In this document: in pieces, positions 3,438-45,482 of the stretch
Layout: each line of letters opens with the position of its first letter
Numbering within the stretch: position 1 is the first letter of the stretch
Origin: Russula earlei
Taxonomy: Eukaryota > Basidiomycota > Agaricomycetes > Russulales > Russulaceae
Length of the DNA: 64,000 nt
Assembly: GCA_025769875.1 (NCBI GenBank)
Contig: JAGFNK010000047.1
Span: forward strand, 1-64,000
Direction of reading: 5' to 3'
Made by a program: the position numbers and the translations under genes
Notes under the pieces: model-generated
Database searches by the model: none
What the model was told of the DNA's origin: nothing
The model's input: the letters and a program-made list of their open reading frames with translations, nothing else

Positions 3438-4587
3438 TCACGGCATGTGTTTGATGAACCATTCCACCGTTCTCAGGAATGCGTTTTCCTTGGCAGCCTG
3501 AATCACTGGATCCCTCTATGTGTGGGCATAAGTATCGAGCCTCACGAGAGTCGGGCGTGTAAATAAAGTAACGCACCAAGTCACCGCGGGTCGCAAACCC
3601 ATGGTGGACACCCTCAGCGTGATTTCGAAGATATCCGGGTGCGAATTTTGCAAATTTCTCATCCGCCGTCTTGCCCAACGACAACGGGAACAGCTCGTCA
3701 AACTCGCAGCTGTTGATGAGGAGAGGCGCCTTGCTCTTCGCGATGTAGATCTGCGACGCAACAGCTCAAGGAGGAGACAGGTGCATGGGACAGGCACCAG
3801 GGACTCACGTCGAAATCTTCAGCTTGGATTGCGAACGGATGCGCGACGGCTACTGCCTTGATGACGTTGTCGAATGCAAGGTCGAAAGCAAGGCGGGCTG
3901 CGCAAACAGGCTCAGCATGATGCGGCTCGCACAGCCAAGGGGGGAGGTGCCCCTGTACGTACCGCCGTAGCAGTAGCCTGTAGCACCGTAGATAATTACC
4001 CCCTGCTCTTTGAGACCCTCTATGAGCTTGCGCACGCGCTTCCCTGTGTGTTCGGGGGTGTGCTTGGGAATCCACGCGTAGAGATCAAAAGTCGATCCCT
4101 GGTAGGTAGGGGTTATCAGCGGAAGCGTTGGAATGTGGGAGTTGACGCACAGGGTTGAGAGCATCTGCGGCAACAGGATCGCCCTCGAAGAGGTCTGGCG
4201 CATACACCTTGAAGCCATTATGAGCAAAGTCGTCACAAAGGAGCTGAGGTGCATTGTCAGCAGGACGAACACTGGAGGGGGAAGATGACGTGCGGGGTTG
4301 TTCGGAAGCTCAAGGCCAAACACGTCTGTCAGGTAGAGGATGGCCCTGTCCTTCGGGTAATCTGTCTTGGGAGTAGCGACGTATGTCTTGATGCCGTTGA
4401 TCACCTCGTAGGTCCCTCAAGTGGCGGATAGATCACAAATCGGGAAGGTGAAGATTGGAAAGACGAGTTTACCTTCGGCTGTACCCTCGTGACGAGCGCC
4501 TGCAAAGGAATACATCATTATTTACGATTACGACGATATAGACCACAATGAGTTCGTACCGCTGATGCAGTCCTTGCAGAAGCTCAT
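3438..4587 (-). CDS. dienelactone hydrolase family protein, copy 1
   Basis: Alpha/beta hydrolase of the dienelactone hydrolase family (fungal AIM2-like branch), cytosolic, substrate not known. Eight exons can be joined in frame. The protein begins MSFCKDCISG and ends with VEWFIKHMP. The family triad is visible: nucleophile Cys in GYCYGG, Asp in SCEFDE, His in GVHHGF. All seven introns match those of the second copy at 18225-19415, so the two are paralogs in opposite orientation. The intron after ELPNNP starts with GC (GCACGT) where copy 2 has GTACGT, so it is a probable GC-AG intron; if it were not spliced, the frame would be lost. A TATATATA box lies 77-84 nt upstream of the start. Function in aromatic or lactone breakdown is only inferred from the family. 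Confidence 0.85.
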
Positions 4588-9046: not shown

Positions 9047-11336
9047 ATGGCTATCCTTGTGCTCGTCAGGCCGAGAACGACACTCGGCCACCTGCTGCTC
9101 ACTCGCTCTCGCGCTCTTATCTCCCTCCCCACGAGGAATAATGGTGAGTGCCTATGCACCACCTAGTATTCTTGGTCATGAATCCTTGTTACAGCCATTC
9201 CTTCATTCACTCTTTTATCCCGGAGATGCAGCCATGCCCTTGCCCCTCAAAAAGATGAACACGAGCATCATGACTCAAAGAATGACATGGTGGAAGACTC
9301 ACCCGAGGATTCCCCTCGACTAGAGTTCTCCAGCCTTCGAACCAAAATCAGCCCCGACACGTTGAGGGCAATCACAGACAGACCATTCAAGCACACCCAT
9401 ATGTCTACGGTACAAGCTGCCGTGCTGCCTCTTCTTCCCGACCTGGCTCGTCCTTATAATAAGGATGAGTCACAAGGCCCACCGCGTGACCTTCTTGTCA
9501 AGGCGAAAACCGGCACCGGAAAGACCCTAGGGTTCCTTGTGCCTGCCATCGAAGCTCGAACCAAGGCAATCGATAAAGCAGGCGTCGACGCCCTCGAAGG
9601 AACAGGTGGCCGTCCCGACGCTCGCGTTGTTGAGAATGCTAAGCGTTCGTTCGCACGAAAGACAGTTGGCACAGTCGTCATCAGCCCCACTCGCGAGCTC
9701 GCAACGCAAATTGCAACGGAGGCGACCAAGCTCACTCACTGGCACAAGGGCTTTGAGGTCAAGCTGTTCACAGGTGGTTCTAGCAAGCGCTTCCAGCTGC
9801 GTGAATTTCAACGCGGTCGTAACGATATCGTCGTCGCAACACCCGGTCGCATACGGGACGTGTTGGAGAACGAGCCCGACGTCGCTCAGGTGCTCAAGAC
9901 AGCGACTCATGTGAGTGCTCGGTATATTTGACATTTCTCTGACCCTGAAACCCGTTTTCAAGCTTGTTCTGGACGAGGCAGATACTCTCCTCGATATGGG
10001 CTTCCGCCCAGACATTGACGCAATCGTCGACTTCTTCCCTAAGACTCCCATTCGTCAGACCTTCCTCTTCTCCGCCACCGTCTCACCAGCTATCAGGCAG
10101 ATTGCACGTGAGGTGTTAGATAAGGATCATGTCTTCATTGATGTCGTCCCAAAGGATTCTTCGCCGGTGCATGCCCACATCCCTCAACACTTCACCGTCT
10201 TGCCTAGTGCGAAAGACCAGCTCCCACATCTCTTCCGTCTCATTGCGCACGACCAACTTTCAAACACTGGCAACTCAAAAGTCATGGTTTTCCTGAACAC
10301 CACAAAGCAAACACAGCTCTTCGCGACTCTCCTTCGCCAACTATCCAAATCGACACTACCGTCGTGGTCTCAAATTTACGAGATCCACTCAAAGCGCACT
10401 CAGACAGCGCGCACAGCCGCATCAGATGCATTCCGCCGCGATCGTTCTGGAGCTGCGATCCTTGTTACGTCGGACGTATCAGCCCGTGGGGTCGACTATC
10501 CTGGTGTCACGCGAGTCATCCAAGTTGGCATTCCCGCATCAACGGAACAATACGTCCACCGCGTTGGCCGCACCGGTCGCGCCGGCAAGGGTGGACGTGC
10601 AGACCTCCTCCTCCTCCCCTTTGAACAGGACTTCGTTCGATACCAACTTTCCGACGTGCCGATCAAGCAATTCTCCCACGACACATTACTGAACGACGTC
10701 ACCGCACTCGCTGAGAATTTGGATGGTGCCAAGGAAGCGGAGCCAAGCTCGAATGTGTCTACCAGCAAAGCTCGCCGCCTCCGCGACAAGCCCAGCACCA
10801 CCCTCGCCAACTTGGACACCGAGATCTCTGGCCTGCTTGACCAAGTCGACAGGGAGGCGATCGAGGAAGTCTTTGTCTCGCTCCTTGGCTATTACCTTAT
10901 CAAAGCGGAGGACATACGCGTCAAGCGGCGGAGCATTTTTGAGGCCCTGCAAGCCTGGACGACCGAGGCATGTGGCCTACCCAAAGCACCGTTCGTTTCG
11001 GACGCGCTCCTTGCCAGGTTGGGTGGCCTCGACGATGGCTCGCCCCCACATAGAGCGCAGCGCCGGCCGCAGCGCGGGAACTTCGGGCTCAAGCTACCCG
11101 CGACGCGGTATGTCAATAGCGAGCGGAATCGCTCGCGGAACGAGCGTACGGATCGTGAGGTTGCGTTTTCACGGCAGCGCTGGGAAGGAAACGAGCACGA
11201 TGGTTCTCGTTCGCGGTGGACGGGACGGGATTCGCGCTTTGGTCGAGACCTTGAGCGTGCGCGCCACGTTGACGAACGGCGCAAATCCAGCCGATACGGG
11301 TGGAGTCGTAATGACGATCGCGCTCCGTGGTCCTAG
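9047..11336 (+). CDS. MSS116: DEAD-box RNA helicase, mitochondrial MSS116-like
   Basis: ATP-dependent RNA helicase, probably a mitochondrial RNA chaperone for splicing and translation. Three exons (9047-9143, 9195-9910, 9963-11336) with introns of 51 and 52 nt give 728 residues. The start at 9047 was chosen because exon 1 joins in phase and adds an Arg/Ser-rich, acid-free presequence (MAILVLVRPRTTLGH...). Motifs in order: Q-motif region, AKTGTGKT (motif I), SPTRELATQ (Ia), TPGR (Ib), VLDEADTLLDMGF (II), FSATV (III), MVFLNT, SDVSARGVD (V) and HRVGRTGRAG (VI). The C-terminal tail is rich in Arg, Asp and Ser, as in MSS116/CYT-19-like proteins, and probably binds RNA. Exact orthology to MSS116 rather than a sister helicase is likely but not proved. 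Confidence 0.88.
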
Positions 11337-18224: not shown

Positions 18225-19415
18225 ATGAGTTGCAAGGATTGCATCAGCGGTATGAAGTCGTGCATATCATCGCGGTCATCAGTAACTCTTCCCCCTCGCA
18301 GGCGTTCGCATTGAGGGCACACCAGAAGGTGCTTGCTTATCTCCCCTTATCTAATCTTTATGTCTCGTCGCCTAATGCTTCCACTTCGTATGCTTCCACT
18401 TCGAAAGGGACGTATCAGGATATTAACGGCATCAAGACATACGTCGCTACTCCCACGACCGATCATCCAAAGGACAAGGCCATCCTCTTCGTGACTGACG
18501 TCTTTGGTCACGACTTTGTGAACAACGCTGTACGTTTACTCCCGCTCCCTAATGCGCCTCGGGCTCTGTACATCCCGCTGATCAGAACCGCTCAGCTCCT
18601 CGCCGACGGCTTTGCTCGTAACGGCTTCAAGGTATACTCGCCAGACCTCTTCGAAGGCGATCCGGTCCCCCCAGATGCTCTCAACCCCGTGTGTTCTAAA
18701 CATTCCATCTATCGCTCCCGCTTATGAGGACGATTCTAGGGATCAAATTTCGACCTCGGCAAGTGGATTCCCAAGCACGGCCCTGAACACACCGGAAAAC
18801 GGGTCCGCCAGGTCATTGAGGCTCTCAAGGGGCAGGGGATAACCGTCTACGGTGCCACTGGATTCTGTTACGGTGGTACGTACCCTACCTGCGTCCGTGC
18901 CGTGCGATCCCAAGGCCCGTCCTCGCATTCTATAGCCCGCCTTGTGTTCGACCTTGCGTTTGAGAACATCATTCAAGTAGCGGTCGTTTCTCACCCGTCG
19001 TTCGTCGAAGCTAAAGATTTGGATGTAAGTGATTCGTACTGCACATTCCCGCCGTCGAAATGCCACCTGATCGGGAGCACCGGGCCGTGACGGCAGATTT
19101 ACCTCGAGAAGAGCAAGGCTCCCCTCCTCATCAATAGCTGCGAGTTTGATGAGCGGTTCCCACCGTCACTCTCCAAGACGGCGGATGAGAAGTTCGCAAA
19201 TTTTGCTCCCGGGTACCGCAGGACTTATTTTGAGGGCGTCCGCCATGGATTCGCCTCTCGCGGTGACCTTGTGCGTTCCACTTTATTTTCACTTGGCCAT
19301 CCCGACTCCCGACACATATTCTACGTTCCGGCTCCAGAGCGACCCGAGGGTAAAGCCTGCCAAGGAAGGCGCGTTCAATGCGTCCGTCGAGTGGTTCATC
19401 AAATATTTGAAGTAA
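18225..19415 (+). CDS. dienelactone hydrolase family protein, copy 2
   Basis: Paralog of the gene at 3438-4587, on the other strand about 13.6 kb away. Eight exons: 18225-18249, 18302-18328, 18408-18529, 18596-18688, 18740-18875, 18936-19024, 19097-19270, 19338-19415, giving 247 residues, the usual length for AIM2-like dienelactone hydrolases. The protein starts MSCKDCISG and carries the triad Cys in GFCYGG, Asp in SCEFDE, His in GVRHGF, and ends VEWFIKYLK. All introns start with GT, unlike copy 1. The substrate is unknown; the family hydrolyses dienelactones and related carboxy-esters. The short first exons were joined because the CKDCISG plus EGTPEG pattern is typical of the family. Confidence 0.88.
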
Positions 19416-27245: not shown

Positions 27246-30200
27246 TTAAGACAGCTGCAATAACTGACTGGGTGGGAAGTGCAGGATAACGGTGCGACCT
27301 CGTAAACATAGTACAAGACTAGACTTGTATGAATCTTGACGTTCTGGCCTGAAAGACACGGGGACCCAACAGAGTCTCGTGGTGTGAGTGCCATGAGTTT
27401 TAAAGACCCACCCATCAATACTGCAATACAAACCATGTATCGCAATGGCACGAACTGATGTCGAGTCGCTCTTGAGTGTCTGGATGGCGGCACCAGTACC
27501 CGTGTCCCAGATCCGGAAGATCCGGAATTCGAGATACTGTTGGCCAGAGACAATCCGGGTGCCGTCTGGCGAAAACGCGACGGCTCTGACCCAATGTGTG
27601 TGGCCCTTGAGGGTCTTGATGGTGGCGCCTGTTCTCGTGTCCCAGATCCGGACTGTGCAATCCTCTGACCCAGAGACAATCCGGGTGCCGTCTGCCGAAA
27701 ACGCGACGGCGTAGACCGGTCCTGTGTGGCCCTCGAGGGTCATGACGGTGGCGCCAGTATTCGTGTCCCAGATCCGGGCTGTGCGATCCTCTGACCCAGA
27801 GACAATCCGGGTGCCGTCTGCCGAAAACGCGACGGCGAAGAGGGAATTTTTGTGGCCCTCGAGGATCTTGACAATGGCGCCAGTACTCGTGTCCCAGATC
27901 CGGACTGTGCTATCCCTTGACCCATAGACAATCCGGGTGCCGTCTGGCGAAAACGCGACGGCTGTGGTCCAATCTTTGTGGCTTTTTCGGGTCTCGACGG
28001 TGGCGCCAGTACTCGTGTTCCAGATCAAGACTGTGCCATCCTTTGACCCAGAGACAATCCGGGTGCCATCTGGCGAAAACGCGACGGCAAAGATCGAATC
28101 TTTGTGGCCCTTGGGGGTCTTGACGGTGGTGCCAGTACTTGTGTCCCAGATCCGGACTGTGTGATCAAAAGACCCAGAGACAATCCGGGTGCCGTCTGGC
28201 GAAAATGCGACGGCTGTGACCCAATCTGTGTGGCCCTCGAGGGCCTTGACGGTGGCGCCAGTACTCGTGTCCCAGATCAAGACTGTACGATCCTCTGACC
28301 CAGAAACAATCCGGGTGCCGTCTGCCGAAAACGCGACGGCTCTGACCCAATGTGTGTGGCCCTTGAGGGTCTTGATGGTGGCGCCGGTTCTCGTGTCCCA
28401 GATCCGGACTGTGCAATCCTCTGACCCAGAGACAATCCGGGTGCCATCTGCCGAAAACGCGACGGCGAAGACGGAATTTTTCTGGCCCTCGAGGGTCTTG
28501 ACGGCGGCGCCAGTACTCGTGTCCCAGATCCGGACTGTGCGATCCTCTGACTCAGAGACAATCCGGGTTCCGTCTGCCGAAAACGCGACAGCGTGGACCG
28601 GATCTTTGTGGCCCTCGAGGGTCTTGACGGTGGCGCCAGTACTCGTGTCCCAGATCCGGACTGTGCCGTCCTCTGACCCAGAGACAATCCGGGTTCCATC
28701 TGGCGAAAACGCGACGGCGAAGGCGAAGACCCAATCTTTGTGGCCCTCGAGGGTCTTGACGGTGGCGCCAGTACTCGTGTCCCAGATCCGGACTGTGCCG
28801 TCCCCTGACCCAGAGACAATCCGGGTGCCGTCTGGCGAAAATACGACACCACTGACCGAGTCTCTGTGGCCCTCGAGGGTCTTGACGGTGGCGCCAGTAC
28901 TCGTGTCCCAGATCCGGACTGTGCCATCCTCTGACCCAGAGACAATCCGGGTGCCGTCTGCCGAAAAGTTGGCCGTCAACACTCCACCTTTGTGACCCTC
29001 CATCGTTCTCAGCTCCGCATTCCACGATTGTTCCCCATTCAAGACCGTAACAGATTCCTCCAAGTCTCCGCGGAAGTGTGCACAGATTTTGGAGCCAAGT
29101 GGGGCGAATGGAAGGGCAGAGTGGTAGACATGCAGAGCTGCGACGCTGATGGGATCAAAGAACATAAGCGTAAACCGTTCAAGATCATACAGCATGTCAA
29201 TGATGCCAATTGGAAGCCTGACGCCGGCCAACATCTATAATGATGTAATGAACGGTCCACACCAAAATCAAGACAACTCACTGATAATCTTTGTTGAGCA
29301 AGTCGCAGTGCCGGAATGGCCACATCTAGCGAGTCCATCAGACTCAGAGCCTCAACCCAGTACAAACTGTGATTGAAACAGAATGTTTTCAAGACGTCAA
29401 ACAGCTCGTCCGATGGCGGCGAATTTGCCAAATGATCCGCCCAATGACGGCAGGCGTATTGCATCGCGAGCGGAATGTTTTCTTCGATTCTTTTTGAGAT
29501 ATCTCCAATTTCGTTGTTCAACTTTGTATAGTCTCCGATCTGGCACATATCCCGGTGAAGCCTGTTTAGTTTCTTCAGACAATCGATGGCGAGATAGCCG
29601 TTGTGCACTGAGGAATCAATTCGATATTCTGGCTCTTTGCAGCGGTTCGGATCAACGATAAAATCTGGGAAGGATGCATGCATCACTTGGACGACCCCAG
29701 GGTCCGAAGGAATGATGACGATTGAATGCAATTGCTGGAGAATGCTTTTTATCGGAACATCTTTGCTTAGATCGTCGCAGAGCAATGATGATATCGAATG
29801 TTCAGAGAGAGGGTTACAGAGTACAACAACACAACCAAGAACCCTTCGCAGGCGACCCAGTGTGTCTGGATGGGATGATGATGGTGGAAATGCATTATGC
29901 AAGACAGTGAGGTACAGCTGGTCTAGATGGTGATAAGGAGACTGATTCGACTGCCCAGGGATTTGTGTGGCAGAGACCAGTTCACGGAGCTGTCCCCACG
30001 GGTTAAGGACATTGCGATCTTCGATAAATCGAATTGCGGTGGCAGCAAAGATAAATGATCCACCTGACAGTTGGACGAGTGTGCGGACATCGTCCTGAGT
30101 AAACCAATCACGTCCTCGGAGGCCATGGTCGCGGGACCCAACATGAGTGAGCTCATGCAACATGAAGATTTCGATGTCATGGTCTACAGACGATTTTGGA

Positions 30201-31866
30201 ATCTCGTGATGGAAGAGCGCATGTGTATGTGACTGGAGACGGAGAGAGGGATGGCACGTGCAGTTTAGGCTCGGGTCGACTGGTGAGGAAAATGGAAAAC
30301 GGAAGGTGATCGATGTGGGCCGAAAGCACCGACACGATGAATGAGGTCGCGTCATCATCTTTGCACTCATCGAGGGCATCTAACACGATGACAGCCGGTG
30401 ATGGAAATGCTTGCCCCGTATTGATGGACTTTTGGATTGGTTCGATGATGAGCTTTAGTAATTGGTTTGATGGATCAGAATACCAAATGTCTGGATTGGC
30501 TTTGAACGCCTCTTGCATAAAACGCGCGAGTGGTTGGTGGAATGTCGTGCCCAGTTGGTGAGCAATTGAGCTGAATACAAGCTTTGGATTGTTTCGCTCG
30601 CTATCGTTACCTGAGAAGAAGAAACTCGCGGCAAGCCAATTGTTGCTGTCACAATACTCGGCAACGCTTTGTGCGATGGTGGACTTGCCGGTACCGGCCA
30701 CACCAGACAACCAGAAGATGCGGGGCCTGTTTGGATTGACATGAATAGGATCAACCGTAGCAGTGACAGGGCATTGTTTTTGTATAGCCTCGGTCGAGTC
30801 ATTGATCCATTGATACACGGTGGCCAACAGATCCTCGCGTGTGTCTTTAAAACATGCATGCCTCTTTCTCTCATCGGGACAATTAAAGCGTGCCTTGTGA
30901 GCCCGAGGAAAGTTTAATAGATCATCGTGAACTAAAATCAATGATGAATGATTTTCAGTGTGCTATAAGAGTTTTCTCACCTCGGACATCGTGGAATGAT
31001 TGCTGGGTGACCTATCAGCCGAAGATATCCAATCGGTCATGATGAGACAAACGCACCATCGCCTCCAGAACCACGCGCTGGACTTCCTGATCCCCCTCCC
31101 GAACCTCGCGCCGAATGTCCCGAACCTCGCACCGAATTTCCTGAGAGATTGATTCAGATGAACGAGACACATCTGGCATTTCGGAGAATAACGCACAATG
31201 CCTTGGATTTGGGCGCTCACGGCCGCTTCAGCCTAGACTCGCGAATGATGTCAGAACTAATCAAGCCGTATGACCAAGAAGGAGGAAACTTGCAAGAAAG
31301 TCTTCGATGAGGCCCGTGATCACTTGTATCTGTCCCTGGATAGAGGCCGCATCTTCTCTACTACGGAAAAATCGGGACAACCTTCCACGCGACGCGATCG
31401 TTTGCAGGTAATTCGTGATGGTTTCAAGAGACCTGAATCGGGATCAGGATCAGCTCGCCACGATTGCACCCAATTTGAGGGCAAGGCCGAAGAATAATTA
31501 CTTGGAAAACTTTGTGACGAAATCGACGACAGATTCCGGGATATCTTGTTTGCCTTTGAGCGGCCTGAAAACGGATTGTTCCAGGGTGTTCACGCGGCCG
31601 ATCAGCTCGTCGATGTCGTCGATGTTGTTGGTCGTGGTCTGGGGTATGACGATATCAGATCATTTCCCGGTTTTCGGAGTGGCATAAATTACCTGGACGA
31701 TGTCAACGACTTGAAGTAGTCCAATCAGGGTTCCCTTGATAATGGAACCTGCTGGAGGAGGAATCGCAACTGCGGTCTCCTTGAGGACGGAGAGCGAAGC
31801 GATCAATCCAGCGACGGCAGTTGAGCGTACATTTCTCTTTTTTCCTGTACGTTTAGAGGTCGGCAT
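27246..31866 (-). CDS. NLR-type receptor: N-terminal helical domain, NACHT, WD40 array
   Basis: Fungal NOD-like receptor, probably a signal-transducing NTPase of non-self recognition. Nine exons by eye: 31694-31866 region, 31502-31638, 31294-31432, 31197-31232, 31057-31140, 30981-31002, 30258-30931, 29282-30232, 27246-29234. The N-terminus (MPTSKRTGKKRN, then an Ala/Val/Leu-rich helical stretch) and a coiled coil (EIRCEVRDIRREVREGDQEV) precede NACHT with Walker A GVAGTGKS and Walker B VIVLDALDEC, then a helical linker. The last exon holds 12 WD40 units of 42 residues plus a degraded 13th, almost identical to each other (FS.DGTRIVSGSEDGTVRIWD). The intron at 31233-31293 starts with GC. NACHT and the linker are in different frames; only a 25-nt GT-AG segment (30233-30257) or a frameshift joins them, so the gene may be broken. 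Confidence 0.8.
27470..29012 (-). repeat. array of twelve 126-bp WD40 repeats
   Basis: Twelve in-frame units of 126 bp (unit 3 is 6 bp longer) code for the WD40 propeller(s) of the NLR. Units are nearly identical in the FSPDGTRIVSGS and IWDTSTGATVKTLEGH parts. Units 5-6 and 11-12 share a block of more than 100 nt with a single difference (for example 27584-27690 against 28340-28446, exactly 756 bp apart), a sign of recent duplication or gene conversion. Confidence 0.9.
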
Positions 31867-37159: not shown

Positions 37160-40100
37160 TCATGCCATTGGCTTGCCCCGCCGTGACTTGCCGGTGACGC
37201 TGCCAGTACGCTCCAGTACAGACTTGAGACCCTTGACAGTCTGCACGATCTCGTCTGTCGTGCGTGCGCCAACGCCACAACCAAACACACAGTCAGTCGT
37301 CAACGCAGGCAACAAGACGGACGGTATAAATAAACGGATTGGTGAATAAGCGACGTGCACGCACTGGCAAGCTTGGCGTTCTCCGCCTCGAATTCGTACC
37401 GCTTGTTCCCGCCGTCGCGATGCACGACGATGCGGAACGCGGAGGAGGACGACTTGGCGGACTGGCACGAGACGACGCTGTTGATGTGGTATGACGACGT
37501 CTTGCCGTTGTCAAAGACCGCCTTGGCGGCTTTGTTTGCCGGCATGATCTGCGCATTACACACGGGCACAAAAAGTCAGAGGGGGGGGGGGGGGGGGGGT
37601 GTGGCGGGAAGGAGAAGAAAAGCAAACTCGGAAGGACACGCACGTGGATGTATGGGCCGTCGATCGCCAGCGTGCGTTCGTGCTTCCCGACGATCATCGG
37701 CATCTTTCTGTAAACGGTGTATTTCTGCGACAGGAACGGGTTCAATAATCGAACGACGACGGAGATGAAGAAAAAAACAAAAAACTCTTGCTTGACTACG
37801 GACCTTGTACGCCGCCGTGAAATCTTGCGAGGTGTCATAGTCCAAGTCTGGCACATCAGACACGCGCTTGAAGATCGACGCTATCAACGAGGGGAGGGTT
37901 CAAATTCAGAGAAGTCAGGGCTCAACGTAACGTTGATGGGAGTGTTTGATCAGGGCCTACCGTTCGGATCGCTTGACCGCCCGATCGGTTTCACGTCCAC
38001 GTTCAAGTGGGGCAGCATCGAGCGCTTCACCAGCCTGAGGTCCGACTCTCCCTGCAGACTCGCGACGGTGCGGTCCAGCGGGATGAGGATGCTCATGTCC
38101 GAGAGCAGGAGCGCGTACTCCTTCGCGTGGAGCTTCCGCCGCCGGCACACCATCTCCAGTGCCTCTTGCATATACATCGTCGCAGACCTGTTTTATTTAT
38201 ATATAAATATATATATTGAATGTCACCCAGTCGACGCTCGGTTAGCAAAAAAAAAAAAAAAACCCCTCCTTCGAGAAATAAAAATCATGACGTACACGGA
38301 GATCGTGGTGTAGAGGTGCGCCGCGTCCACGGTGTCCTGGATCCTGATCCGCAAGAAAATCTGCGGTCCCGATGAGCTGTACGAGCCTGGAGATATTCCG
38401 TTGCTCAGGGTTGAGGGAAGCAGAGAGCTCGAGCTGGTGCTCTGCGGGACCGCGGCGGGAGGTGCCAGCGAAGAATTGGACGTGTCTGCCCGCTTGGTCT
38501 TGGCGACGCGCGATGGGCTGCGCTGTATCTGTCCTTCCAAAACCTTATTTTGTTGCACTGGTGGAGGTAAGAGGTGGAACCATCGTCGTTATCATCGCGA
38601 AAGACGGGGGAGAACGAACGAACGGACCTTGGGTCGGGTTAGCCTCCAGCACGGCGTACGCGTCGAAATTGAACTTGGAGATTTTTGTCTCTCTGTTCGG
38701 GGCTGGAGTATTCAAACAAGACGAGGCGAGGAGTCAGTTTTATTCGCGAAGAACGAAAAAAGAGGCCCGGATGAAATTTCTCGGACGACGACCTACGGGG
38801 AAAGTCTTCGTCCACTTCGCCATCGTCCTCGGCGATCTTGAGCACCCATCCGACCGCGCTCAGCCTCTCCTCCGGCGCGTCGGGATCCTCGTCCAATCGA
38901 GAAAGCCACCCGGCCTCCCAATAGCTCCACAGCGCGAACCCGAGCACCTCCTCGACCGTCGCGTCCTTCCTGACGCTCAGCTTCATCGGTTCCCCCGCCG
39001 GCTCGCGCGCAAAGGGGTAAAAGACGGTGACGATCATGGACGCCGCGGGCGAGACGCCGCGACCGGAGATGGACGAGTACAGGTCCGAGAACGGGTTCGT
39101 CGTGTTGGACGCGGCCATCATGCTGCTGAGCGCCGACCTGGCCGCCGCGCGCACGGGCGGCACCTTTTGGCGCGCGAAGAGGTCCTCCTCCGCGGGGCTC
39201 GCGTGCGGCGCGGCGGCCATACCACCGCCACCGCCACCAGCGCTGGCGGTGCCGGCGGCCGTGCTCGTCCCGTGCGACGCGCGCCTGTATTTGCTCGGCT
39301 TCAAAGGCGCGACGACGGAAGGGGAGGCGCCGGCGGGGGCATGCGCGTGCTCGGACGTCCGCGGATGGAGCGGGGTGACCATCTCGAAGCCTGGCTCGCT
39401 CGGTCGCGCGGAGGGGTACGACGCGGACGACGTGCCGGTGACGGCGATCCTGTCCTCCGTGACGGGGCTGAGGCGTGCGCGGCTGCGGACGTGCAGGGGG
39501 AGCGGAGAGGAGACGTTGAACGAGTTGGACGTGGAAAGGCTGGCGCTGACGCCGGACAGGCTGTCCGAGACGACGCTGTCCGAGTTCATACCTCCCAGCC
39601 TTGTCGTGGCGAACTCGCTGGCGAAAAACGACGAACGTTGCGTGCCGCGGTGAGCGAAAGCAAAAAAAAAAAAAAAAAAGGGCGCATCCGTGTTGCACGA
39701 CAGAAGCCGCACACCCGGGTGGCGAGGAGGAACATGACAACTCACGGATCGAACTCGTCCCCGTCAATGTCGACGCTGACGCCAACGCCGACGACGTCAA
39801 AGTCCTCGTCACCCACGGGCGAGAACGGGTCCTCTTCCTCCTCTTCCTCCTCGTCCTCCTCTTCGTCCTCCCCTCCTTCCTCCCCCGAAGACGCCAGCTC
39901 GAGCGCGACGCCGTTGTCCTGCGAGGTGACGACCCTGATCTCGGGCGGCGCGGCAGCACCGGCCGCCGCCACGGCGCCACGTCGCGCCAGCAACCTGAGC
40001 CTGCGCCGTTCGTCCATCTCGGCGGCGCCCTTGAACTTGGGTACGAACGCGGGTTTCAGAGGAGGGGGGGCGTCCGTGGCCGCGGCAGAGGCATGCTGCT

Positions 40101-40630
40101 GCGGCTGCTGTTCCTGCCGTGGCGGCGACGTGGGCGTCGTCCCCACAGTCGTCGCCGTGGTGCTCGCATCATCGCCCGCGCCGCGATCGCCGCTGCTGCG
40201 CTGCGCCCGCGACAGCTTGGACGCGCCGCGACGGCGTCCGCTGACGCTCATCCCCAGCGCGCCCGTGCGGGACGGCCCGAGGATCGTGTGCGAGTATTTG
40301 AGCCCCGTGGCTCCCGGGAACCCCGACACGCTGCGCGGGCGCGGCGCTGGGCCCTCCGAGTAGTCCGGCGAGAGCGGAGGGCTGGGGGGCGTGATCAGCT
40401 CCGGCCATTTGGTCGCGTCGGCGAGGGAGGCGGCGGTGACGTATGGGTTGGTGGAGAAGGAGGGGTTGAAGGAGATGAGGCGGGGTCCGTACGGGTCCTC
40501 CACGTTGCGAAGATACCCGAGGCGTAGGCTGTGTATGAGCAGGCTGGGCAGATCGCGGTCACGAAAAGGTTAGCTGCACGGCGTCGTCATGATAACGAAT
40601 CACCCACTCCGGTTCACTTAAGAGCGACAT
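37160..40630 (-). CDS. AVO1: TORC2 subunit SIN1/AVO1 (CRIM and PH domains)
   Basis: Scaffold of TOR complex 2, which recruits AGC kinases such as Ypk/Akt at the plasma membrane. The start at 40630 opens MSLLSEP; exon 2 continues DLLIHSLRLGYLRNVEDPYG when a 66-nt intron with GTGGGT donor and CTAAC branch site is removed. A disordered Pro/Ser/Glu-rich part with an acidic run (EDEEEDEEEEEEED) follows. The CRIM domain is clear: NPFSDLYSSISGRGVSPAAS, VTVFYPFAREPAGEPMKL, VLGFALWSYWEAGW, SAVGWVLKIAEDDGEVDEDF and KISKFNFDAYAVLEANPTQ. Later exons give a Ras-binding-like stretch (LRIRIQDTVDAAHLYTTISV) and a C-terminal PH domain (YTVYRKMPMIVGKHERTLAI ... NKRYEFEA ... EIVQTVKGLK). Introns carry long homopolymers. 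Confidence 0.9.
37581..37599. repeat. G19 homopolymer inside a SIN1 intron
   Basis: Nineteen consecutive G on the plus strand (C on the coding strand) lie upstream of the acceptor of a SIN1 intron, where they extend the pyrimidine tract. Length variation is likely in the population, and sequencing error is possible here. Confidence 0.8.
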
Positions 40631-40889
40631 CTGCCCTCGCTGGTGAAGGATAGAGGATGGCAGAGAGGGTTGAAATCTGAAATTCAGGTCAGGGACGCCG
40701 CAGGGCACCTGATACTAGGGGTAGGGGATTGTGACGGGGGGACGTAAACGACAGCTTAGTTTAGAGTCTGTGAGGGGATATTATTGCATTGCGGTGCATA
40801 GCATGTGTCCATCGTGAGATGAGTGAATAGATTAGGCTCCTAGATGAAATCGACAACATCTGCAACAACTGGAAAATACACATCTCAGT

Positions 40890-43800
40890 TCATCTCCACT
40901 CCGGCCTTCCATCCTTCCTCGTCCTCATCACGCCAGTCGTCGCACCGGCGGCCAGCCGCCCCGCGCTCCTCTGTCTCCGTAGTTCCAAAGCACGGGCATC
41001 GATCTCTCTCGATCGCTCCATGTCTTCAAAGCTGCTCACAAGGTCCTTCACGCTCCCACCACTGGTCCTCCGACTCTCGGGTATCTTTATTGCACCCGAA
41101 GCCGCAGGAGGTGGAGACACGGGCCGTAGATCGACCATTCGCTTCGGTACTCGCGGTATCATCGGAATTCGGCTAGGTTGGGGAGCTTGCTGCAGATGAA
41201 CGAGCTCCTTTGGGTGTGCCGGGCGCGGCGCCGGTCTGGGCTGCGGCGTTATCACTGGGCCACGCGGCTTCTCCAACAACTCGGGTGGAGGAAGAGGTAA
41301 GCCCGGACGAACGGGCTCGTGTTTCTTCTGCGCCGGCGTCTTCTTCTTGAGAGTGGGAAGGTACGAGAAAATAAACCCTTTCATCCGACTACCCACTGAA
41401 GGCGTCGACGGAACCTCCTGTACCGACTCATCTGGTATCGTGTGTGATGTCGCGCCAGTCACGACTCCATTATTATCAGCAGCAGGACTGGGAAGCGCAG
41501 CAAGTTCGCCTGGAGTACTGGATCCTGGATTGTCGTGCACGCTCAGCGACTTTGCCTCTTCCAATAAGTGTGAGTAACGTGGAGCCATGAGCGAAGCCGG
41601 GAGTCGTGGGGCAGGCTGGGTCTCGAAAGCAGGGGCGGCGAGCCTGGGCTGTGTTGCACCGACTCCATGCCGTCGCGCGGGATGCACTGGCGTGAAGTCA
41701 GGGACAGTAGGAGTGGATGAGACTGACGAGAAGCGCAGGGTCGGTGTGGCTGGTGCACCTCGTCCGTCACGCTGCTTCTTCTGCAGAGCCTTGGCGCGTT
41801 TCAACAGATCCTCCCTGCATCTAGGTGAGTAAATGAGGGAAAGCGGAAACACCCTGAACCTACCATTCGAATGCTGGTCCGAGACCAGCAACAAACTCTT
41901 CACCGCCAAAGATATCCTCGAATCGCCGGACAACGTCCTCGAGCTCAACCGCATCAACGTCACCAAGGACTCCCTCGCTACCCCATCGTGCACCAACTTG
42001 GAGCCTTGCGTCAGTAAAGCATGCGTCAAGCAACTTCCAATCACTGCGTGACCATTCACGGGGCCCATCCGTGTCGATCACCAACGGAGCCTCAGGTCGC
42101 CGAAAATATGAGGGTGCAGGAGAAGGCGTCCTGAAAGCTGACTGAGGACGGCTCAAGAATGTCGGGGAATCCAGCTCGGATTCAACCTCATGCAATAATT
42201 CAGGAAGCGTCATAGACGGACTGCCGGCCATCACGACGCGCCCGTCGACCACGACACCAAACGAACGACGGGGAGAACGCGAAGACTTGGAAACACCGGC
42301 GCTTGTGAGGTTCCCGCGCCGGGCTTTGCGGATAAGAGACTCCACCGAACGATTCTTGCGAGCCTTCATGACAAGGTCCCAATCATGCTACGGACAAAAT
42401 TAGAAGGAAAAAACACAACTATGGGTGCTGGAACATACCTGTTTCAGGATTGCAGCGGCCCGCGCAGCAGCCCAGGGGTCATCGCTGACAACCTTGATCA
42501 CGCCAAAATCGCTCTCGTCACCGCTGTCCCCTTCAGATTCCGCGTCCGCTGCTTCAACCATGGGCTCGTCAACTTCCACGGACTCTTCGAGTAATTGGGG
42601 CTCGGCGGTCCGCTGTCGCGGCGACGTGAAAGGTCCTGGTTCTTCGGACAACGCACGGTCCACGATCTCTTCGTCCGTGCGCTCCTCTCCGACGAGTTCG
42701 CCATCGCCGCTGTCAAGCTGGACACCAAAATTTCGGTGGAAATGATATCCTCGTGTTGGGCGACAACAGGATGGAAATTGGCAACCGTTTCGTCTCGTTC
42801 TTGGGACGGCGTATTTCCGTTCTGATTCGAGTTTTCATCTCCGGGTTCACAGTTCTCCCTCATATCCTGTTGGGGATAAGTAGGTATTTCCCCGAAATTG
42901 TCGAGCGCTTCATCGCTGCCATCTTGGACAGAAGGCGCGGCCTCGATATGGGAAGTGACCCTAACGTGATTGTCGTTGGCAAGAAGAACACTCGGTGGCG
43001 TGATGAGTCCCATCTCCGATGTTTCCGTAGCCTTGGCATGTTCTTCCTGCACTTCAATCTCACTTCCTTGCACGTCCTCGAGGGCTTCTGGAACACGGCG
43101 ATCCTCGATCTCTTCCACGCGGAATTGGGGCCGCGCAGGTGAGAGATCCGTGTCACTGCTTCCGTCGGCGCCATTGTCCATTTCATCCTCAAGGATGGGA
43201 TCGGCTCCGTGAGGGAAGGGGCTGATCGGGCGACCCCATTGCTCAATTCTCTCTCTCGTAGTACTGGTTGGGGGGTCTGCCTTGGTCGGTACATGCACCA
43301 CGCGAAACCGGCCCGTATATTCGCCCTCGTGCTCCAAGCCATCGCCGTCAGACGAACTCGAAAAGTCTTCGCCATCTGCGGCAAAGTTGAACACCGGTTG
43401 CTCAGGAAGATCGGGGTCCTCGTGATCATCAACATCAGAGGGGATGCCCGGGAGGGGAAAATCAAGTGCGCAGCGATTGATGGGCGACGACTGCCTCCCA
43501 GGGCCGGGAGGTGTGCTCTCGAGAAGGGGAGTTTCGCGTGCGTTCGTCGGGACTGGTGGCCGTGGGCGTCGTGGACGACCATGGAGCAGGATGGGGTCAT
43601 CTGTGGGCGACGGAGGAGGAAGACGAGACAAGTCGATCTCGGGGGGCTCCTTCTTGATCGTGACCTTGAGGGTCTTCTTGCGCTTACTCGACTTTGAAAC
43701 GCGTGGACTGGAAAGGAATACCTCACGGGGGGGCGTGAACCGTTCAGCCGGAGGCTCATAGGCGGGAAGGGGCGTAGAAGATCGGGCGCGCGCGGACAGG

Positions 43801-44657
43801 TGCTGACGGGTATGCGAAAGGACGGGAGGAATGTAATCCGCCTTGTCGTTCTCGGCGTGAGGTGAACGGAGGAGGGTCGGACTCCGCCCGAGCTTGGTGG
43901 CTGGACTGACGGACAGAGCACGAGAGCGTGCAAGGCGATCGGGTTTGATACTCTCAGGAGGGGGAGCGTTGCTCTGGCGCGGCTTCCTCGCGACGGCAGA
44001 GGCGTTTGCAAAGGGATGCCCATCGTTCCCGGCGTCGCCCTCCTCCTCTGATACGCATCGGCGGCTGTTAAAAAGGGCGAATCGAACGACAGCTGACAGA
44101 GATCGACTCGCCTGCATCCGATCCGACGCGAGATCTACGCGTCTGTTTACGCGCTTTCGGATTGGGACTCGCCTCTGCGACCCGCTGGGACCGATCTGGC
44201 CCGTCGACGTCGTGTAAGGGGTGCGATGGGAACGCGGGGCGTTTGCGCTTGGATGAACTACTGCCGGCGTCCGCGACGTGACGCGGAGGTGAGGCGGACT
44301 CCGAACCAGCTCGTGTCCACGAGGACTGGCGTCAAGATCGGTCGGTGAGTGAGGGGGGCCAAAAACGGGAGGAGGTATGGGGCTGTAACGCACAGACTGG
44401 CGGCTGGTCCCCGTCCGCGCAGGGTCCTCTGGAGGAGGGCTTATGAGAGACTTTGCGGCGTCCGAGTCGACCGCGAACTGGGACGCTTGCGGGGTCAAGA
44501 GGCCTGTGTTGAACACGTCTTGGAAGGGAGCAGGTGGGTGAGGGGTGAGGACTCGGGTGGTGTCGCGCTTGGTGGGGGAAGATTTCGAAGGAAGGGAGTG
44601 CATAAGAGAGGAGGGACGGGCGAGACGGACGACGGGAAAAGGCGGCGTATTCTCCAT
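40890..44657 (-). CDS. large, mostly disordered protein of unknown function
   Basis: About 1,150 residues over at least four exons. The start at 44657 (MENTPPFPVVRLARPSSLMH) was preferred to an upstream ATG at 44951 because the extra part reads like a leader. Most of the protein is Pro/Ser/Arg-rich with basic patches (SKRKKTLKVTIKKEP) and many S/T-P sites, typical of a CDK-regulated nuclear protein. A folded-looking helical segment lies near 41860-42100: EWSRSDWKLLDACFTDARLQ and VRRFEDIFGGEEFVAG. The last exon ends with VKDLVSSFEDMERSREIDAR and a basic tail. I cannot name the family; the SDWKLLDACF block is the part most likely to be conserved. Inner introns (for example about 42700 and 44060-44110) were set by frame change only. 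Confidence 0.6.
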
Positions 44658-45482
44658 AAGGTGAGACTTGGGCTCGCTCGCTCGCTCGAGGGTGGTGAAG
44701 GCAACGGATTCTAATTGTGGTCGGTCAGTCGGTCGGTCGTTCAAGGCCAAGGCGAAACCAAAAAAGTTGAACGGCAAGAACACACCAATCACGTGACATA
44801 CACGTGACTCTCGAAACCAACCGACAAAGGACCTTGTCTGCTGGGATCTGGAATATTCATTGACCTTGATGATCACCCTCTCACTCCACTCCGCAGATGC
44901 GACCCCATTTCTGATGTCACCTCCAATCGCATGTTGCCTGATTGCCATCATAAAGTGGTTTGCGTGTGTCCGTCCCCCGGGCCGCTCATGGCAGCAACGG
45001 GGGGCCAGCTGACTCTCTCTTCTTCCCTGTCGTTCCGGTCAAGATTGCAGTATTTGGGCAGCTGATCGCCCTGCCACAGTTTCCGCGCCACTGGCGGAGG
45101 TTTTACATCTAAGGTATTACATCTCACCACCTTCCCTCCTTATCTCTACCCCCCCTACCCTCGTGACCACTTGGTGTACACCAAAAGCGCCTTAAAATTA
45201 TTTTCCGATTCGATCTCAAACTCTATCGCCGACACATAACACCACCTAGCATCCCTTTTTCATCGTATATCGATGTTTCCTACCAACTCGACAATCCTTA
45301 TGACCGTATACGACGACCAAAAATTTCCACCCGGGTGCACACTAGTGATAGTCATCGAATCATATGACAAAGCCCGTCTTCCCACCTCCGTCAGCCTCCT
45401 GCCCGAAAGCGACTAGTATGGTTATGTCTACATCGTCATGCATCTAAGACATACTAGTCCTGTACACACGCGAACCACGACC
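44658..45482. other. intergenic, nothing recognised
   Basis: Upstream region of the disordered protein and downstream region of the small gene that follows, both minus strand. No further gene seen. Confidence 0.5.

Follow-up and report, generated by a model that had tools for sequence, protein, structure and literature searches.

An array of 12 WD40 units on a Russula earlei contig is very likely the ligand-sensing beta-propeller domain of a NACHT-WD40 NLR from an expanded agaricomycete family, of which this copy would be a decaying member. The array lies in a stretch of 64,000 nucleotides (contig JAGFNK010000047.1, positions 1 to 64,000), which we refer to as the window, and its features are collected in Table 1. 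As read from the sequence, the array is the C-terminal sensor of a NACHT-WD40 NLR (STAND protein). The receptor kind is already known, and Russula earlei provides a new, well-resolved example of it. Variation between the units is concentrated at a few positions, five of which carry a diversifying signal across the related loci of the same genome.

Gene structure around the WD40 array

The array is held in an ORF of 662 aa, in which Pfam finds 12 WD40 stretches (E 1.9e-150). The units follow one another at a spacing of 42 aa throughout, save one spacing of 44 aa that reflects a 2-residue insertion in unit 3, and unit 12 has a degenerate tail. At the DNA level, TRF reports a period of 126, 11.3 copies and 85% matches. 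These results and the unit alignment confirm the twelve 42-residue WD40 units of a preliminary description of this DNA, which had further proposed that they belong to a receptor like HET-D, HET-E and HET-R of Podospora. The latter proposal is partly borne out, in the form of a NACHT-WD40 sensor domain, as the exon upstream of the array matches NPHP3_N (E 2.3e-26) and NACHT (E 2.4e-07), both above the Pfam cut-offs.

Table 1 Features of the receptor gene in the window
Feature	Positions	Strand	Source or remark
ORF of 662 aa holding the WD40 array	27246-29234	minus	ORF list
C-terminal cap, 84 aa and stop, pattern DGWV...RLCWVPV...GRTVILHF	27246-27500	minus	conserved in paralogs and some other fungal NLRs
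Array of 12 WD40 units	27501-29018	minus	TRF, Pfam, unit alignment
Unit 12	27501-27626	minus	
Unit 1	28893-29018	minus	
Pre-array segment, 72 aa, start of WD40 exon	29019-29234	minus	conserved in paralogs
Probable intron, 47 bp, GTGAGT...TAG, at junction of NACHT exon and WD40 exon	29235-29281	minus	by-eye alignment with intron of paralog L036
NACHT/NPHP3_N exon, divided between two reading frames (ORFs 30177-30941 and 29039-30379)	29282-30941	minus	ORFs, Pfam; upstream end provisional
Departure of the frame from that of seven compared paralogs	30240-30270	minus	position estimated from alignment
GVAGTGKST, presumed Walker A motif	30678-30704	minus	sequence read
Putative N-terminal exons, start codon at 31866	31250-31866	minus	exon ends placed by eye

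The N-terminal part of the gene is probably helical. The 150 aa of the joined putative N-terminal exons match MLKL_N at E 0.033 and 14.1 bits, below the curated cut-off of 27. This weak match fits the excerpts of PMC9815663 that describe basidiomycete NLRs as lacking HET and the Goodbye/HeLo/MLKL-like class as their most frequent annotated N-terminal class. Unlike in Podospora HNWD proteins, no HET domain was found in the parts tested, namely these 150 aa and three further ORFs; a whole-genome search with PF06985 (HET) gave 0 matches but was likewise silent in the control genomes (0/14), so that it does not bear on absence.

At the other end of the gene, the C-terminal cap is the probable closing blade or blades of the propeller. 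When 240 proteins listed by two protein searches were searched for the cap with phmmer (E up to 10), some match was found in 22, part of these through ordinary WD units only, and the consensus of the 22-sequence alignment contains the pattern GW...RLCW.P...GR..I.DF. Compared with solved structures, the array matches the highly repetitive propeller 2ymu (E 7.2e-142) and APAF-1 (3jbt, E 3.4e-79), and the likeness to both is a sequence match of the WD40 array. APAF-1 is a STAND protein with two propellers.

Variable positions of the units and their codons

In the window array, the six columns of highest entropy are 14, 32, 11, 12, 30 and 10 (unit 3 put in register, odd ends of units 1 and 12 excluded), and their summed entropy was reached by 0 of 100,000 random six-column sets. 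Mean pairwise unit identity is 87% outside these six sites and 28% at them; 16 of the 42 columns are invariant, and positions 13, 20 and 40 are also variable. The concentration of variation at few positions, pointed out beforehand, is therefore real and concerns mainly 11, 12, 14, 30 and 32. Position 10, which had been included among the variable residues, is only a weak site in related loci, where Lys occupies it in 291 of 325 units (a set in which haplotypes and one place, L021 = L050, are counted twice). The wording "near-identical" stands for the 87% outside the six sites. On this measure, only six of the 29 arrays with at least 8 scored units in our sequence comparison set (29 family places and the window) are less uniform than the window array.

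These positions match the sites reported for HET-D and HET-E, as had been suggested. According to excerpts of PMC1805685, four Podospora codons, 7, 9, 25 and 27, which flank the conserved codons 8 and 26, are under strong positive selection. Their spacing equals that of 12, 14, 30 and 32 around 13 and 31 in the window array, and it is from this spacing that the two registers are taken to be equal. In excerpts of PMC12222747, Podospora units are classed by positions 10, 11, 12, 14, 30, 32 and 39, and the six most variable window columns all fall within this list. The strongest sites are 12, 14, 30 and 32 in Podospora and 11, 12, 14, 30 and 32 here.

Selection was assessed by pairwise piN/piS, with bootstrap over loci. 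The set comprised 254 units of 25 related loci, without the window, L031, L021, L050, L029 and L027 (second haplotypes and one truncated place among them) and without the two end units of every array. At codons 11, 12, 14, 30 and 32, piN is 0.450 and piS 0.194, a ratio of 2.32 (bootstrap 1.96-2.83), whereas the other 37 codons have a piN of 0.058, a piS of 0.119 and a ratio of 0.49 (0.43-0.56); these pairwise counts do not model recombination between units, and recombining units bias selection tests. Each of the five codons has a piN of 2.6 to 5.0 times the array-wide piS, with lower bounds above 2, and the next codon, codon 7, reaches 1.21 (0.95-1.51). For the window array alone, piN/piS is 1.19 when taken over the six sites and 0.64 over the other codons. 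The codon-wise dN/dS comparison that had been proposed thus yields a diversifying signal in the related loci but a weak one in the window array itself.

Silent differences are also raised at the variable codons, which would be expected if these were mutational hot spots (targeted hypermutation) without selection. The piS is 0.37 at the six sites of the window array against 0.13 elsewhere, 0.208 against 0.148 at the six sites of the pooled 325-unit set with its double-counted haplotypes, and 0.194 against 0.119 at the five sites of the cleaned 254-unit set. However, where codons differ at several bases, counting the paths between them is expected by itself to raise pairwise piS, and the probability that the same residue is encoded by a different codon is 0.017-0.215 at the five sites, inside the range of the other codons (median 0.078, range 0.008-0.530). 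Because the ratios are 2.32 and 0.49 and silent variation at the five codons is ordinary, selection on the five sites is the better reading, and we consider hot spots quite improbable.

To place these residues in the fold, we used two AlphaFold2 models of the 662-aa ORF, both of middling quality (model 1, pLDDT 73.8 and pTM 0.50; model 2, pLDDT 73.3 and pTM 0.58). In model 1, the stretch that matches solved eight-bladed propellers runs over residues 250-580 and does not take in units 1-4, and in model 2 the best matches slide (240-580, 114-450, 72-450 and 154-493). The models disagree on the propeller split, and neither backs a split into 7 + 7 blades. In unit 6 of model 2, the strands are 286-291, 297-302, 308-313 and 317-322; positions 10-12 (294-296) lie in the loop between strands one and two, position 14 (298) begins the second strand, and positions 30 and 32 (314 and 316) lie in the turn between the last two strands. 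The d-a and b-c loops of a propeller lie on its top surface according to excerpts of PMC1805685. The modelling thus places the variable residues in d-a and b-c loops, and their predicted clustering on one face, which had been raised as a point to check, follows from this loop membership and the literature. Together, these residues may make up a surface for recognition on a single propeller face.

The pattern extends to other fungi. The homologues among the matches listed include proteins of Phlegmacium glaucopus (46% identity over 94% of the query), Mycena galopus (42% over 95%) and Tetrapyrgos nigripes, all of which combine NPHP3_N/NACHT with WD40. Among the 120 listed of 1376 homologues, 52 are repeat-uniform (core identity at least 0.80), with unit numbers centred on 12-14, and their most variable columns are 12, 30, 11, 14 and 32. 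These are the same top five columns, which suggests that the pattern is general in NACHT-WD40 proteins of this kind. The array also matches WD40 proteins of many kinds, including bacterial ones (120 listed of 7994), as would a common WD40 scaffold protein that carries an internal duplication but does not serve in recognition. Such a scaffold is extremely unlikely in our view, since it is at odds with the NACHT exon upstream of the array, with a diversifying pattern confined to five sites across the family, and with the recurrence of these columns in the 52 homologues.

The receptor family and the turnover of its units

A comparison of the NACHT ORF with the same genome (66.6 Mb, 1374 contigs) gave 106 matches. 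By pairing pre-array and post-array segments we count at least 79 WD40 arrays over both haplotypes; 82 of 93 pre-array and 83 of 90 post-array matches entered the pairing, short second pieces and weak far matches being excluded, and 3 pre-array and 4 post-array segments were left single. Twelve units are found in 39 arrays and 13 in 19, so that 58 of the 79 arrays have 12 or 13 units; the others have 10 or 11 (four arrays each), 19 (three), 4 or 9 (two each), and 3, 6, 7, 15, 16 or 17 units (one each). Both flanking segments stand in open frames of equal length, which we take as one frame, in 50 of the 79 arrays. Frame-breaking unit spacings occur in 7 of the 29 compared arrays and may reflect decay or assembly error, and the arrays of L022-L030 may be incomplete at the locus end.

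Several places depart from the usual arrangement. The pre-array and post-array segments are 5 to 9 kb apart at C195:61522-70321 and C355:1633-7146, and L050, at the C195 place, has only one readable unit, as if its array had received an insertion. On C191, the flank of L036 recurs on the same contig in three long matches of 88-93%, which suggests a tandem cluster. A search for a second haplotype copy of this flank gave no match above 93% besides itself and pieces shorter than 340 bases, and for the flank of L046 no match above 76% over at least 300 bases was found. The L036 and L046 genes may be lacking from the other haplotype or collapsed in the assembly.

The family resembles Podospora HET-D, HET-E, HET-R and the NWD family in its NACHT domain with C-terminal WD40 units of high internal conservation, in repeat-number differences between alleles, and in pseudogene members whose arrays are largely open. 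It differs in size, since Podospora has ten genes and the family here at least 79 arrays when both haplotypes are counted, and in the usual array length, 12-13 units against 11. Among basidiomycetes, it is of the same architecture class as the NLRs in excerpts of PMC4986451 and PMC9815663, the latter of which deals with BaMLKL N-termini. In the former excerpts, WD repeats prevail in basidiomycete NLRs, 21.6% of WD repeats are highly conserved (in Laccaria bicolor, up to 58% of repeats), and the unit number drops above 14, with a maximum of 21. The highly conserved class is defined there with T-reks as above 85% identity over at least 100 aa, whereas the window array is characterized here by other measures (85% DNA matches in TRF, 87% identity outside the six sites). 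Compared with that survey, the site pattern, the turnover and the length differences between haplotypes are measured here within one genome.

Close paralogs share almost none of their unit types. In 11 paralog pairs with an upstream alignment identity of 94.3-97.2%, no unit type, as defined by the five sites, is common at the same index in any pair (0/9 to 0/13 each), and over all 11 pairs a single type is common at any index. Outside the variable sites, the core distance in 13 paralog pairs is about the same at the same index as at other offsets. Across 307 units of 28 loci, no two non-allelic loci had an identical 126-base unit in common; recent unit exchange between genes, as in Podospora, is in this respect not seen. 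Within one array, five unit sequences recur. Homogenisation within arrays is weak, with the nearest neighbour in the same array for 17.7% of units vs 3.4% in shuffles, and mean core differences between units of 7.93 within and 8.39 between arrays.

Haplotype pairs allow array length to be compared between alleles, allelism of the four pairs being based on the identity of flanks or upstream parts. Two of the four differ in length. L027 (9 units) and L028 (13 units) show 99.88% identity over the 2500 bases upstream; they agree in unit 1 and, at an offset of four, in six further units. C16 and C673 have 19 and 15 units with a 96% identical downstream flank, and the C673 copy is broken into pieces. 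L023 and L029 have 13 units each. Four further, putatively allelic contig pairs, C590/C768, C96/C1237, C584/C126 and C171/C572, agree in length within each pair. The repeat number, which had been suggested for comparison among strains, therefore differs between haplotypes in two other pairs of the family but not at the window locus (12 vs 12).

A possible reading, to which we give rather less than even credence, is that unit content is fully rewritten from one close paralog to the next but array length stays at whole-propeller counts, with selection acting on five residues per blade and on blade count. In this length-held reading, 12-13 units and the conserved cap would make two propellers, and 19 units (12 + 7) would add a third. 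Three of the six arrays with more than 13 units have 19, a weak, post hoc pattern. The 19-unit arrays L034 and L039 are unpaired in the NACHT tree (no support values). The abstracts and excerpts searched did not describe units turning over at constant array length in one basidiomycete genome. The constancy of length despite full unit turnover is the part worth following. Having 79 arrays and two haplotypes in one assembly makes it possible to measure diversification, turnover and any limit on blade count side by side.

State of the window copy and possible function

The window locus has a second copy, L031, with 99.46% identity over 6141 bases. C754, the contig of L031, also carries copies (98-100%) of three other window segments, and one more window segment has a 99% copy on C276. 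From these near-identical copies the assembly appears to hold two haplotypes, with the frame break common to both. The reading frame of the NACHT exon is broken both in the window haplotype and in L031. In the window copy, NACHT and repeats do not form one continuous coding sequence; intact paralogs exist, for example L036. Eleven of the 12 window units are present letter for letter in L031, whose unit 11 carries a frame break. As the two haplotypes agree in repeat number and in 11 of 12 units, active diversification at the window locus, as the preliminary description would imply, is not supported. L031:1-2480, opposite window 26741, holds about 2.48 kb of extra DNA with inverted terminal repeats that is absent from the window haplotype.

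The break in the NACHT frame of both haplotypes makes it probable that, in a family that is otherwise live, the window copy is decaying or a pseudogene. It is somewhat more probable than its opposite that the window array is a functionless relic whose variation is old divergence. The broken exon, the extra frame break in unit 11 of the second haplotype, the low rank in uniformity (7th least uniform of 29) and the piN/piS of only 1.19 are all in line with a relic. On the other hand, the array stays open across 1.5 kb in the window haplotype and keeps its 16 invariant columns, and the break could be recent or the copy could serve as a unit donor. By analogy with Podospora NWD pseudogenes, the window copy may still donate or receive units.

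For intact members, we propose that the variable residues on one propeller face would bind a ligand, that binding would release oligomerisation of the NACHT domain, and that the N-terminal helical domain would then set off a cell-death or defence response. The observed basis of this mechanism is the architecture and the variation pattern only. As for the ligand, the preliminary description proposed an allorecognition role. Such a role is a candidate by analogy, and recognition of other organisms fits equally well. We note that incompatibility in Podospora is known genetically, with HET-C as the partner locus, whereas the family here is known from sequence alone.

We give an even chance to the possibility that the ligands of the family come from other organisms (bacteria, viruses, competing fungi) and that its sites track these moving foreign targets rather than conspecific non-self. 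Haplotype arrays that differ from each other (9 vs 13 and 19 vs 15 units) coexist in one assembly, presumably that of one dikaryon or diploid, which suggests that those alleles are not mutually exclusive in one cell and counts mildly against simple allelic antagonism. The size of the repertoire also fits surveillance, an idea raised in excerpts of PMC2873952. Against this, the variable sites are those of proven allorecognition genes (excerpts of PMC1805685 and PMC12222747), and coexisting alleles need not be mutual antagonists, as the partner in Podospora is another locus. Specificity change in basidiomycete immune-type receptors has been little tested, and functional work can draw on intact members whose arrays differ in length between haplotypes.

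Other features of the window include an ORF with a DEAD/helicase C-terminal match at 9915-11336 on the plus strand, whose surroundings have a 99% copy on C276, and an inverted pair of segments, 72% identical, at 3557-4417 and 18406-19292. ORFs of 663, 392 and 817 aa at 38372-44951, without a Pfam match at E 0.001, overlap in part the region of highest GC content in the window.
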